This document shows, piece by piece, positions 4 through 38,958 of a DNA stretch of 38,958 bases. The stretch covers positions 1 through 38,958 of the IMG/VR virus record IMGVR_UViG_3300029258_001532. The stretch is one strand, 5' to 3'. The stretch is from a virus. The translations under genes were made by a program, and so were the position numbers. Position 1 is the first letter of the stretch; each line of letters opens with the position of its first letter. Below the pieces are notes generated by a model. It was not told the DNA's origin and did no database searches. It saw only the letters and a program-made list of their open reading frames with translations.

Positions 4-438
4 CTACCTAAGCCCTCTTATATACATAGTATCGCGTTGTGATCTTGGTGTCGATACATCCACGCGGGCACCGGGCGCTATGCCCTGGCGTTTCCTTAGC
101 TCTCTATTGTGGCAGTCATTGCACAAGGTTTCTAGCCACCGCCAAGATAGCGGGTTATCACCCCGGGCCTTAAGATCTCCTACCTCTACTATATGGTGCA
201 CCATATCACCCTTAAGGATAGTCCCCCGTCGCTTATGCTCGGCGCATAGCGGATTCATACGGCGAAAGGCCCGGCTCGTCTTAGTCCATGCTGCCGAGCT
301 ATAGAATCCCGAGCGATCGGCCTTAGCCAAGTGCCTAAAGCGCTCGGCCTCTACGTGCTTATGCTCGTCGCAATAGCCAGGCCGTGGTATTAGGGCGCTG
401 CAATTAACTTGCCTACATATGGAATTAGCGTTTAACAT
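4..438 (-). CDS. HNH endonuclease, packaging-associated
   Basis: A 144-residue HNH nuclease. The core has His81-His82 (in MVHHIVE), Asn95 and His110. Cysteine pairs around C65/H68 and C106/C109 can form the structural zinc site, and an N-terminal C8-C13-C23-H26 cluster looks like a second zinc knuckle. The start is ATG 438 because AAGGA lies just upstream; an in-frame TTG at 495 would add 19 residues but has no good ribosome binding site. In HK97-type phages this family lies next to terS and is needed with terminase for cos cleavage (family knowledge). Here terS is at the far right end on the same strand, so the two genes become adjacent if the ends are joined. The packaging role is inferred from that position. 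Confidence 0.88.
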   Translation of the reverse strand: MLNANSICRQVNCSALIPRPGYCDEHKHVEAERFRHLAKADRSGFYSSAAWTKTSRAFRRMNPLCAEHKRRGTILKGDMVHHIVEVGDLKARGDNPLSWRWLETLCNDCHNRELRKRQGIAPGARVDVSTPRSQRDTMYIRGLR

Positions 439-506
439 TTTGTCCTTAATATAAGTATATACTTTTTTCAAGCAAAAAGCGTCTAATTTAACCAAAAAGG
501 CAATAG

Positions 507-900
507 TGTCTTGTCACCCAAAAAGCTAAGACGTTGGTATATAGGCACTTAGCCAATTTTGTCTTGTGGTGTCTTGTCGCTCCAAAAGTCGCAAGACACC
601 CCGCAGCCCTACTCCCAAGCCGTTTCTAGGGCGTTTGTCTCGTTGTCTTGCGCATTTCGCTATATCCCTTATATGAAAAACAAAAATTATTTGTTTCATT
701 GTATCATACAACAAACAAACAAATACTTTCCCTCACATAGGACTTAGTAAAAGTGGCAAGACAACAAGACAAACGCCCTAGAAAGCGCCAGGCCGTAGGG
801 CTGCGGGGTGTCTTGTCACTTTGATCGCCACAAGACACCACAAGACAAAACGTCATAAGCCGTTGAAAATAGCTAACTTACATTTTTTAGCCACAAGACA
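507..900. repeat. 394-bp dyad of twelve TGTCTTG heptamers
   Basis: TGTCTTG or its complement CAAGACA occurs at 507, 560, 570, 592, 644, 757, 765, 809, 831, 841 and 894, and a one-base variant TGTCTCG at 636. Every copy has a partner mirrored about position 703.5: 507/894, 560/841, 570/831, 592/809, 636/765 and 644/757. The arms 592-650 and 757-815 also match over most of their length (52 of 59 bases by eye). The spacings of 53, 10, 22, 44 and 8 bases are kept exactly on both sides, even where the intervening bases differ. The centre is AT-rich and carries the palindrome TTGTATCATACAA (699-711). Confidence 0.95.
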
Positions 901-3575: not shown

Positions 3576-3686
3576 TTAACGGCGTAATTTAAGCCTTATC
3601 AGTAATATTGAATATTGGGCCAATAAAAGGGCGACGCTAAAAGGCCATTTTATAATGCCCCAAATTTTGAAAAACCATTTAATCAT
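3576..3686 (-). CDS. 36-aa membrane peptide, possible holin-like
   Basis: A tiny gene whose ATG lies inside the last codons of the primase-helicase gene (8-base overlap through AATGATTAA) with AAAGGGG upstream. The 36-residue product is one hydrophobic segment with aromatic residues at its start (IKWFFKIWGIIKW) and a basic end (RLKLRR). Its position right before the M15A peptidase suggests a holin or spanin-like helper, but this is inference from position and topology only. A longer in-frame upstream start exists but would lie wholly within the primase gene. Confidence 0.55.
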   Translation of the reverse strand: MIKWFFKIWGIIKWPFSVALLLAQYSILLIRLKLRR

Positions 3687-5961
3687 TTTCGCCCCTTTCT
3701 TTATTATGCAATTCCTTAAGCGTTGCCGTATCGCCCGGGGTGCGCGACGGGTTATAATAGACGTAAACCCGCCGGCCACCGGCTCGTATTTGCTGCGAGT
3801 GATAGCCCTTATCCATAAGCGCCCGGCGCATGCGATCACGCCCGATCCCTACCGTCGCTATATCCTCGGAATATTCGGCTAGCGCCTTGGCGGCGTAGTC
3901 GAAATCAAAAACCGCCGGGGCCTCTTCGGCTAACCACGTGCCCAAATCCGCGCCGCCCACGCCGACGGCAGCGTTAACCATTTGGATCTTAGTTACCGAG
4001 CGCGGGGCCCTTTTAAAATGATCCATATCTACCGGGTAGGATTTGAGGTATTTAAACAGCGCCGAAATATTGAGCCCGTCGGCTTTCCACCGCATGATCT
4101 CGTCTATAAACCAGTTACTAATAGGGTGATCCGCGCCGCGCATGGCGTAGATCCGGCGCTCGTTTACGTCCTGCAAGGGTAACGCGTCTATATTATTCGA
4201 GAACATTAAAAAATTAGCGTATACATTGGCCGTGTAGCTATCTTGCCCTTTAGGTTGTATGTTCGCCACGGTATCGGCTAAAAGGCTTTTCATACGCTCC
4301 CAGGTTTGATATTTACGGGCCCCTGTATTGGCTTTTATTTCTTGCACCACGGCTATAAGGCACTTATCTAAAAACCCGTTAAAACGGCCCTCCATATCGT
4401 CGGGGCTTACGTCGTGCGTATTATGGCCGCCGACAAGTAAGCGCAGTATATCGAATAAGATCCCGCGCCCGGTGCCGGTTACCGGCGTTATGTTGATAGG
4501 CGTTACAAACGAGCGCGTACACGGGTTTTGAATTAACCGGGCTAGCCACTCGGTAAACCAAGCCCTTTCTATTTCCTCGGGGAAAAGGTGCTGCAAAAGC
4601 AATTTAAACGGGCCGATCCGGCTCTCGGGATCGTCTATCGTTTCGTCGTGCGGGGGAAAATAAAAGGTGTTAATAAATTGTGTATTATCGCCGTAGCTAT
4701 TGGGCCGGCTGCAAAAGCGCGGGGCCCCGGGTTGGTAGGTGTAGCCGGCAAAGTGGCGCACGTTTTGGCTATTCTGCCAGGCCGTAGCCATTGGCTCTAT
4801 CTCTACCTCGCCGTCGGGCCCTATAAATCGGTGTAGATAACTTGTGTTTTGCTCTTTAAAGGCTTTTAGCGTGCGCCTCTTGGCCTTGTGCGCCGGTACC
4901 CCCATATCGTAAACCTCGGATCCGTCGGCGAGCTCTACAAAAGAATAGCGTTTTTCCCAATCGCTTAGCTTTTTGCTCTTGCGCTCGCGGGTGGGATCGT
5001 CGGTCTTGGCGGTAACCTCGTTATACATTTGGATCACCGTCGCCATAGTTACCGGGTTGCCGCCGTAGCTATCCGCGCCCCACGAGGGCCACCGGGCTAA
5101 AATTTCGCTATAGTCGTACTCTATGCTATTTTCGCTCCACTCGCGGAAAAGCTCGCGGCCCTCGTCGCTCCCTTGGAATTGGTGATATAAGGCCATGCCG
5201 ACGGTACGCCACCCGAGGCCGTTAACGTTGCCGTCGGGGCTTAGCGCGGCCAATAGAGAGCGGATCCGATCCTTGTCCATATTGAGCGGCGGCTTGTAGT
5301 TTTCAAAGGCCGTGGCCCCTGTAAGCACGCCGTCGGGGCCCAGGCCGCCGGCTGCCGCCCGAGAGCGCCCGCCCGAGAGCTTAAGCCACCCCTCGGGGGC
5401 TATGCTTTCAAAATATTCAAATAGGGCGCTAATTTTCTCGCCCGTAAGGGTGGGCAAAAATTCGCTATCTACCGAGTACAGATCGCCGCCCTGCCAGGCG
5501 TAAGGCTTGCCGGTGCCCGGGTGTACGCCATACGCTACCCATTGCTGCCCTTTGGCTTTAATTTCTATTTGGTGTAAATTGCCTAGCTCGCACTCGTATT
5601 TAGCCGAGTTATCCGGCCCGAGGCCCCCCGGGGGCGCGGCGCAGGGGATAAGGACGCGGGGCGGCCTGCCTATGCGCACCGGCGTAACGCCGATATTTTC
5701 GCGGCACCAAATAACCAATTTTTCTACTACTTCCCGATCTTGTATATCTATATCTATGCCCGGGTTAAATTCGCCCAGGACGCCGAGGCCCCCATAATAT
5801 GAGGCCTTGGCCCACTTCTCCACGTCTTCACGCGTTGCCCTGAGAAGGGGCCAGGCCTTTTTATTAGGGAACTTTTCGCCGGTTTTTATCGGCACTAGCA
5901 TATAGCCCGCCTCTACAAGCGCGGGGCCGTGCTGCCTTTTGTAGTTGGTTTGCATATGCAA
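3679..5961 (-). CDS. Prim-Pol / SF3-like primase-helicase
   Basis: A 760-residue replication protein. The N terminus (about 10-200) is a bifunctional primase/polymerase domain: the metal site DID is at 70-72 in GIDIDI, and a later YGVHPGTGKPY strand matches the family. Residues about 230-320 match a PriCT-type linker domain (LGWRTVGMALYHQFQG). The C-terminal half resembles DUF5906/D5-like SF3 helicases: a P-loop-like TPVTGTGRGIL near 490-500, an acidic VVQEIK strand, MFSNNIDALPL and NERRIYAM. The usual P-loop lysine is arginine. Expected roles are origin opening and priming at the fork. TTG 5961 follows the previous stop directly, with AAGGG 8 bases upstream; ATG 5955 is the alternative start. 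Confidence 0.88.
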   Translation of the reverse strand: MHMQTNYKRQHGPALVEAGYMLVPIKTGEKFPNKKAWPLLRATREDVEKWAKASYYGGLGVLGEFNPGIDIDIQDREVVEKLVIWCRENIGVTPVRIGRPPRVLIPCAAPPGGLGPDNSAKYECELGNLHQIEIKAKGQQWVAYGVHPGTGKPYAWQGGDLYSVDSEFLPTLTGEKISALFEYFESIAPEGWLKLSGGRSRAAAGGLGPDGVLTGATAFENYKPPLNMDKDRIRSLLAALSPDGNVNGLGWRTVGMALYHQFQGSDEGRELFREWSENSIEYDYSEILARWPSWGADSYGGNPVTMATVIQMYNEVTAKTDDPTRERKSKKLSDWEKRYSFVELADGSEVYDMGVPAHKAKRRTLKAFKEQNTSYLHRFIGPDGEVEIEPMATAWQNSQNVRHFAGYTYQPGAPRFCSRPNSYGDNTQFINTFYFPPHDETIDDPESRIGPFKLLLQHLFPEEIERAWFTEWLARLIQNPCTRSFVTPINITPVTGTGRGILFDILRLLVGGHNTHDVSPDDMEGRFNGFLDKCLIAVVQEIKANTGARKYQTWERMKSLLADTVANIQPKGQDSYTANVYANFLMFSNNIDALPLQDVNERRIYAMRGADHPISNWFIDEIMRWKADGLNISALFKYLKSYPVDMDHFKRAPRSVTKIQMVNAAVGVGGADLGTWLAEEAPAVFDFDYAAKALAEYSEDIATVGIGRDRMRRALMDKGYHSQQIRAGGRRVYVYYNPSRTPGDTATLKELHNKERGEND

Positions 5962-6285
5962 TTAAAAAGCCCTTAAGCCTTTTTCGCACTCCATACCGAA
6001 AGCCGCGTACATAGCGGCATAACTGTAAAGCGTGGTATCGGTGGGCACCCGGGTTAATTCTTTTAGTTCCTCGTGCTGCTCGGTTATGGTTATTATCCGC
6101 TCGTCGCCGTTTATCTCTATGGCTACGGTGTAAAGGGCCTTGGGATCGTCGGGCTTGTCTCCGGTTATGCTCCACCCGAAAAAGCGGGCAAGGATCCGGC
6201 AGGTATTGGCTTGGGATAGCGTGAAATTGATCCCGATATGTCGCGGTACATCGGTATCGAAACAGCCGATCTTATGCTTTGCCAC
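5962..6285 (-). CDS. Unknown protein, helicase operon (107 aa)
   Basis: A 107-residue protein of unknown family. It begins at GTG 6285 with AAGGGGG upstream and overlaps the preceding gene by 14 bases. It has a middle strand-turn-strand segment (ALYTVAIEINGDERIITI, about 50-67) and flanking helices, no membrane segment, and two isolated cysteines. It abuts the primase-helicase start with no gap, so a replication accessory role is plausible, though nothing in the sequence proves it. Confidence 0.75.
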   Translation of the reverse strand: MAKHKIGCFDTDVPRHIGINFTLSQANTCRILARFFGWSITGDKPDDPKALYTVAIEINGDERIITITEQHEELKELTRVPTDTTLYSYAAMYAAFGMECEKGLRAF

Positions 6286-6457
6286 GGGCGGCCCCCTTAC
6301 GTGCTGCGAGCTCTTTAAGAACTACCGGGTGCAAGCGCTCGATCATTTGCTCGAAAGCCTCGCCGTTGCTCTTGCAGCCGAGCGCCCCCTTAATGCAAAG
6401 AAAACTTACTTCGTGCGAGGGCGTAACCTCGCCGCATATTCTAATTTTTTCATCCAT
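6272..6457 (-). CDS. Small unknown protein (61 aa)
   Basis: A 61-residue protein beginning MDEKIRICGE, with two cysteines in the first half and a basic helical C terminus (LKELAARKGAARGKA). AGGAG lies 11 bases before the ATG. It overlaps the next gene by 14 bases, so the two are probably translated together. No family recognised. Confidence 0.65.
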   Translation of the reverse strand: MDEKIRICGEVTPSHEVSFLCIKGALGCKSNGEAFEQMIERLHPVVLKELAARKGAARGKA

Positions 6458-7435: not shown

Positions 7436-7705
7436 GCGGCTATACCTCGTTTTAAAATCGGTGGGCCACTATAAGGGCAGACCCGCTCCCCGCCGAGTAT
7501 TTTTTTAGAAGGTGTTACGACATTTTCCTGCTGGGTGGCGCTACCGCGTGCGATTTCGGCACCCGTTTTTAACCTATAATAAAAAATCACAAAAAGCAAG
7601 AAAAAATATTTTTGATCAATTTGATCTTTTCTATTGACACCGGGATAGAATTAGAATACGTTATTTAGAGGTATTTTCAAAACTCAAAAACAGGAGATCA
7701 AAAAC
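7436..7705. promoter_or_regulatory. Divergent control region between two operons
   Basis: These 270 bases hold no gene and separate the leftward methylase/primase operon from the rightward replication operon. Rightward, TTGACA (7634-7639), a 17-base gap and TACGTT (7657-7662) give a good -35 box with a weak -10 box. A perfect 13-base palindrome GATCAATTTGATC (7614-7626) lies 7 bases before the -35 box and may be an operator. Leftward promoter elements are not clear, though AT-rich sequence at about 7575-7610 could serve. Confidence 0.5.
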
Positions 7706-38857: not shown

Positions 38858-38958
38858 ATAACCCCCCGCATATAGGCGCTATCGTGTAGCCCCTGGCATA
38901 TAGGCCCGGGCGCGCTAACTTTAGTTTTTTGGGAAAGGGGAATTTGTGAACAGAAAAG
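38858..38958. other. Region before terS, possible cos/packaging site
   Basis: No gene in the last 101 bases. Two direct repeats GCATATAGGCGC (38868-38879) and GCATATAGGCCC (38896-38907) lie 28 bases apart, followed by a GC-rich CCCGGGCGCGC and an A-rich end. Directly repeated sites next to terS resemble TerS-binding sites. The cos cut itself cannot be located. If the ends join, this region lies between terS and the HNH gene. Confidence 0.4.

Follow-up and report, generated by a model that had tools for sequence, protein, structure and literature searches.

To our knowledge, the replication origin is unknown for most phages. A literature search on where PrimPol phages or phage Chi begin replication, with subscription papers largely outside its coverage, returned no description of such an origin. 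For satellites of the PICI/SaPI type, an origin is recognized by the criterion that pri-rep plus ori suffices for autonomous replication. At PICI origins, an AT-rich region located 3′ of rep has a set of iterons on either side, a layout that was stated in 2018 to occur in no other known bacterial replicon (PMC6092414). The Rep protein of SaPIs reads its origin through a C-terminal domain, apparently as two hexamers (PMC7581432), and the PrimPol-helicase of NrS-1 uses start sites with the 8-nt sequence TTTGGTTA (PMC8718748, PMC7102993). Here we analyze an array of short repeats in a phage record from IMG/VR (38,958 bp; 'the window', meaning the whole stretch of DNA that was analyzed), which in our best reading would work like a PICI/SaPI origin.

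The mirrored array

The earlier note on this DNA had described twelve mirrored TGTCTTG heptamers, and this description was borne out with one small correction. Exact copies of TGTCTTG number 11 in the 38,958-bp record, compared with 1.2 expected by chance, and a count across the record placed all of them within positions 507–900; the twelfth site, at 636–642, reads TGTCTCG, with one mismatch. The 12 sites form six opposite-strand pairs that share a mirror sum of 1407 and thus an axis at 703.5. Chance does not readily produce such symmetry, as the best of 20,000 trials that put 12 sites at random into 394 bp contained three mirror pairs, compared with six in the window. The pairs flank a 106-bp spacer that is 70% AT (genome, 49%), and relatives have the same layout. 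The features of the array and its surroundings are as follows.

4–495, minus strand: HNH endonuclease gene, always adjoining the array in the window family and lying toward the genome end and terS (from gene neighborhood)
507–900, no strand: mirrored iteron array, proposed replication origin; 11 exact and one near TGTCTTG, kept in five relatives
507–513, plus strand: left outer iteron, present in six of six genomes
560–576, plus strand: two direct iterons 10 bp apart (560–566, 570–576; word search)
592–598, minus strand: left-arm inverted iteron (word search)
636–650, plus strand: inner tandem pair 8 bp apart (636–642, TGTCTCG; 644–650; word search)
651–756, no strand: AT-rich center (70% AT), proposed unwinding region, with the palindrome TTGTATCATACAA at ~697–709
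757–771, minus strand: right-arm inner tandem pair (757–763, 765–771; word search)
809–815, plus strand: right-arm inverted iteron (word search)
831–847, minus strand: two direct iterons 10 bp apart (831–837, 841–847; word search)
894–900, minus strand: right outer iteron (word search); most relatives have no site at the same distance
557–667, plus strand: left arm of a long inverted repeat (81% complementary; partner 740–850), the extended stem being specific to the window
740–850, minus strand: right arm of the long inverted repeat (81% complementary; partner 557–667)

The spacings had been thought to be kept to the base even where the intervening sequence differs. This was true of the outer pair, which lies beyond the arms of the long repeat and whose 44-nt spacer matches its mirror at only 19 of 44 positions, but not of the inner spacers, which match at 38 of 50 positions, indicating that the inner symmetry is partly due to the long inverted repeat. 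A 30-nt direct repeat (80%; 853–882 and 907–936, 54 bp apart) flanks the right outer site. GC skew has no clear switch at the window array, and a search for RNA elements gave no Rfam match for the array region.

Conservation and genome setting

Using the exonuclease, TerL and primase, we found five related genomes, and in all five a TGTCTTG array lies beside the same HNH gene. The arm spacings in the six genomes, read from the outside in, are 52–53, 8–11, 22–23, 43–44 and 8 bp; some sites are degenerate yet occupy the expected positions. This conservation supports the proposal of selection on site position. Loss of the sites or their spacing beside a retained flanking gene, which the earlier note had named as a refutation, was not seen in these five. 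The base-exact symmetry did not survive the same comparison: small indels break the exact mirror in the relatives, leaving it only approximate, with more irregularity in the right arm, whose outer site is absent or shifted in most of them. The central spacer is 63–70% AT in the six genomes, compared with 48–57% for the genomes as a whole. The sequence TTACATACA or a close form of it occurs in the center of five of the six, with an inverted partner in most, and the window has TTGTATCATACAA instead.

The arms had also been said to be capable of forming a cruciform. The window does contain the 81% inverted repeat, but the capacity to fold is not conserved, with a single-strand folding z-score of −16 in the window compared with −6.4, −6.4 and −2.7 in three relatives. 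Taken together, the relatives' indels and folding scores indicate conservation of site position but not of the long stem, and we therefore rejected the cruciform as the function of the region. In general, a left arm is about as similar to its counterparts in other genomes as to its own right arm; the window is the exception, its own two arms being clearly closer to each other. The near-perfect long stem in the window thus looks like local homogenization of the arms, outside the conserved design.

Searches farther afield recovered little. Searching for TGTCTTGTGGTGTCTTGT across viral contigs yielded three further contigs, each with one match and no such array, a scan of genome contigs with a primase alignment found only distant Serratia loci without the array, and direct DNA similarity to named phages consisted of chance matches to an A-rich stretch.

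TerS and TerL begin the opposite end of the contig. With HNH at one end and terS/terL at the other, the circular order is array, HNH, cos, terS, terL, and the likeness of the contig ends among relatives suggests that they are real (cos) termini. In most relatives the terS-side contig end starts with CTTTTCTGTATNCAAAC or a near form (L036–L047, window ends); in the G010 record the terminal ~110 nt look foreign. One relative, G001 (L030), has many tandem GCCAGAG/GCCAGTG units between the HNH stop codon and the contig end, and the other relatives are without them. Repeats resembling GGGGTCTATATGA (window 38860–38920 and 990–1050, and several relatives) lie before terS, at the HNH-side end and ~100 bp to the right of the array, and are possibly terminase or promoter elements. 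The GGGNNCTATA repeat family near cos was set aside as not specific. The record also encodes a portal protein, TerL, TerS and a long late structural unit, and the closest named TerL proteins are those of Geobacillus phages and phi105.

Arrays in phages with related primases

The replication genes of the window encode a PrimPol–PriCT_2–DUF5906 primase-helicase, a DUF2800 exonuclease, an Enc34-type SSB, PolA, a VRR-NUC-like nuclease and an SNF2-type helicase. No DnaB helicase is encoded in the window, and it contains no DnaA box (TTWTNCACA), which sets it apart from DnaA-dependent iteron plasmids. Three further features bear on what might bind the array.

3679–5961, minus strand: primase-helicase with PrimPol, PriCT_2 and DUF5906 domains (domains found; 71–76% identity in four relatives), proposed initiator
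3754–3912, minus strand: predicted winged helix at the primase C terminus (~residues 684–736; AF2 model, 10-residue mean pLDDT 76–94), proposed iteron reader
6272–6457, minus strand: 61-amino-acid ribbon-helix-helix (RHH)-like protein (model matches RHH folds), rival binder

The primase stop codon is ~2.8 kb from the array, which lies on the 3′ side with other genes between. By its domain content (Prim-Pol, PriCT_2 and DUF5906) the enzyme may belong with initiators of the SaPI Rep/D5-like type, in which a DUF5906/D5-like helicase is fused to an AEP primase and carries a C-terminal DNA-binding domain, here a model prediction, and its helicase part matches the NrS-1 PrimPol-helicase (E 1e-13). 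We modeled the last 151 residues of the primase, in which the predicted winged helix has mostly high confidence, and structure comparison of this model returned winged-helix proteins, all with middling scores that speak to fold only. The C termini of the two primase groups gave a weak profile match (hhalign E 0.002, probability 14%). Another candidate binder, the early protein encoded at 1164–1886, was rejected because it is absent from the relatives; its homologs are in mycobacteriophages, and no relatives of it were found in viral contigs.

The N-terminal part of the primase has relatives in Enc34, BPP-1, BcepNazgul and others, and we inspected such phages near their primase genes, adding APSE-1 by way of its DUF2800 exonuclease. 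Arrays built from other words were present in 13 of 18 phages with a related PrimPol-helicase replisome (BPP-1, Acinetobacter 4316, APSE-1, AH2, JS26, Enc34, BcepNazgul, phiAxp-2, Redjac, Chi, MA11, SS2019XI and Mel-JY33). They usually occupy the interval from the primase to the following gene or to cos, and in 4316, APSE-1, AH2, JS26, Enc34, BcepNazgul and phiAxp-2 the array is immediately 3′ of the primase gene. BPP-1 has two copies of TTGCCTCGT followed ~70 nt on by two mirrored copies of ACGAGGCAA, just before HNH–terS. Acinetobacter 4316 has two copies of AGTGACGTT and their mirror around TATATATATA, between the primase and the gene in the HNH position before terS. In APSE-1, repeats of GTAACAACC in both orientations surround ATATATATA, directly after the gene in the primase/helicase position and far from the terminase genes. 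The gene preceding the APSE-1 array also carries, within its 3′ end, three one-mismatch iteron copies in tandem 10 bp apart (L062 3310–3338). Thus, a mirrored layout of two iteron sets that had previously been reported just from small phage satellites is now seen in several well-known phages.

To score the arrays we used random 550-bp windows as controls (median score 3, 95% at 4.5). Ten phages reached a score of 5.5, compared with 3 of 154 random windows, some of the tested regions being longer than the 550-bp controls. JS26, BPP-1 and 4316 were counted for an exact mirrored tandem pattern, a criterion picked post hoc. A strict scan for w-w...rc(w)-rc(w) identified one place each in BPP-1, 4316, APSE-1 and four of the six window-family genomes (G000, G001, G003 and G005). 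Each hit was the array itself, and neither the shuffled controls nor Geobacillus E2 gave any. The scan did not pick up G010, L051, Enc34 and BcepNazgul, in which the words are more variable. By the same tests that found the 13, five of the 18 primase relatives (PM87, VP2, KLEP18-1, FoX4 and A18P4) had no array, and two of these, VP2 and KLEP18-1, match the primase of the window in the PriCT/helicase part only.

Geobacillus E2, with a TerL like that of the window, a DnaA-like/DnaB replisome and no array, and APSE-1, with its terminase elsewhere, together indicate that the array tracks the replication genes and not the terminase. The same two phages bear on whether the array serves packaging, as an element close to cos that terminase or the HNH protein would recognize. 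Its place within ~1.2 kb of the genome end and beside HNH, in the window family and several relatives, would fit such a role, but E2 has the same TerL without the array, and the APSE-1 array adjoins the primase, far from the terminase genes, making this explanation very improbable.

The proposed initiator and comparison with known systems

Among the binders that the earlier note had put forward, the origin initiator is the one that our observations support, namely the array and its conservation, the way it follows the primase type from phage to phage, the domains of the primase and the absence of DnaB and of DnaA boxes. We consider it likely that the array is the phage's replication origin and that the PrimPol-helicase reads it as two head-to-head rings, although the origin activity, the binder and the two-ring mechanism are each what we infer. 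In the proposed mechanism, two oppositely oriented sets of 7–8-bp iterons would flank an AT-rich unwinding region, and the PrimPol-helicase (3679–5961) would read them, probably through its C-terminal winged helix. One helicase ring would be loaded per arm, so that the two sit head to head over the center, and the rings would then melt the AT-rich DNA. The same enzyme would make the primers, and replication would be bidirectional. Several observations count against this reading: the ~2.8 kb between array and primase stop codon in the window, the five primase relatives that had no array by our tests, the weak profile match between the primase C termini, the middling scores of the winged-helix matches and the uneven retention of the two outer sites.

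A different binder would give the array a different role, as an operator and not an origin, at which the RHH protein (6272–6457) switches the leftward HNH–cos–terS–terL late unit through pairs of sites that cooperate along the DNA, in the manner of the heptad arrays of RHH regulators. All six genomes encode the RHH-like protein (~60 amino acids), either directly ahead of the primase or with one gene in between, its structural model matches RHH folds (although with weak Foldseek E-values, 0.13 and up), and RHH regulators such as omega bind 7-bp heptads. Its position is roughly the slot of a small regulator in Enc34-like phages. The array always precedes HNH, the left outer site is found in all six genomes, and in five of them the best −10 box facing HNH is placed 6, 17 or 27, 26, 36 and 36 bp beyond that site, in steps of about one helical turn; this pattern is suggestive in those five only, as the window's own −10 box is ambiguous (53 or 45 bp) and out of step. 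However, the RHH profile had no match in BPP-1, 4316, APSE-1 or other array-bearing phages, the APSE-1 array does not precede terminase or head genes, and exact words are confined to 507–900, with none at the divergent early control region (7436–7705). We regard an operator in place of an origin as unlikely.

An origin could also double as a late-promoter control, with occupancy by the initiator or the RHH protein coupling replication to late transcription. This would be compatible with the origin reading, and we hold it as a tentative possibility. The array precedes HNH and the late genes, predicted HNH promoters lie just outside the conserved left outer site, and this site, on the HNH side, is retained more consistently than its counterpart on the right, an asymmetry that an origin alone would not call for. 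On the other hand, these promoters were predicted from short consensus matches, the −10 box of the window is out of step, and for the window a separate scan detected no promoter directed toward HNH. The earlier suggestion of a partition-like complex found no support. Heptad arrays with RHH proteins are known from pSM19035-type partition (PMC9499535), but neither PF13614 (ParA) nor PF02195 (ParB_N, which does not cover RHH-type centromere binders) is present in the record, and its gene set is one of replication and virion genes; a centromere-like site is scarcely credible here.

Extended to the whole class, the origin reading becomes an evenly balanced proposition: that PrimPol-helicase phages (relatives of Chi, BPP-1, APSE-1 and BcepNazgul) start replication at PICI-like mirrored iteron origins, that the word co-varies with the primase winged helix, and that the origin system is common with PICIs. 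The layout is detectable from sequence alone and points to a specific initiator, and origins are thereby predicted for the much-studied Chi, BPP-1, APSE-1 and BcepNazgul, whose consulted records annotate none. If the origin reading is true, the 2018 statement about other bacterial replicons (PMC6092414) would need widening, and the result would bear on the source of the satellites' replicons. The paired differences in word and C-terminal domain would also offer a natural set for studying site choice by initiator helicases.

Several known systems share parts of this design. The omega/RHH arrays of pSM19035 resemble it in having 7-bp words, both direct and inverted, and the window encodes an RHH-like protein (PMC9499535), but no ParA-type ATPase was found in the window, and arrays of the same layout elsewhere occur without a detectable RHH relative. 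For SCCmec Cch2, too, an initiator helicase reads iterons downstream of its own gene via its C-terminal domain, but there the iterons are three 5-nt units in a direct-repeat region and the inverted repeats are dispensable for binding (PMC7581432). NrS-1 provides a related helicase part in a phage enzyme that makes its own primers and starts at a specific sequence, although with two copies of the word, one per strand, as opposed to 12 in a mirrored array.

PICI and SaPI origins come closest. The phages with arrays differ from these satellites in being full-size, with their own virion genes and PolA, and in having iteron words that vary among phage groups; moreover, the window array is not immediately 3′ of the primase, other genes intervening. 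Because of the full set of virion genes and the separation of array and primase, we did not file the window as a PICI. The claim that the array is far more ordered than ordinary iterons was overstated for the family, as the PICI/SaPI origin likewise places an AT-rich region between two iteron sets. Indeed, in both cases the AT-rich region with its two sets of short iterons lies 3′ of a gene for a primase/helicase initiator (PMC6092414; PMC7581432), and the likeness to SaPIs would extend to an initiator helicase that, in the SaPI case, reads DNA with its C-terminal domain (PMC7581432).
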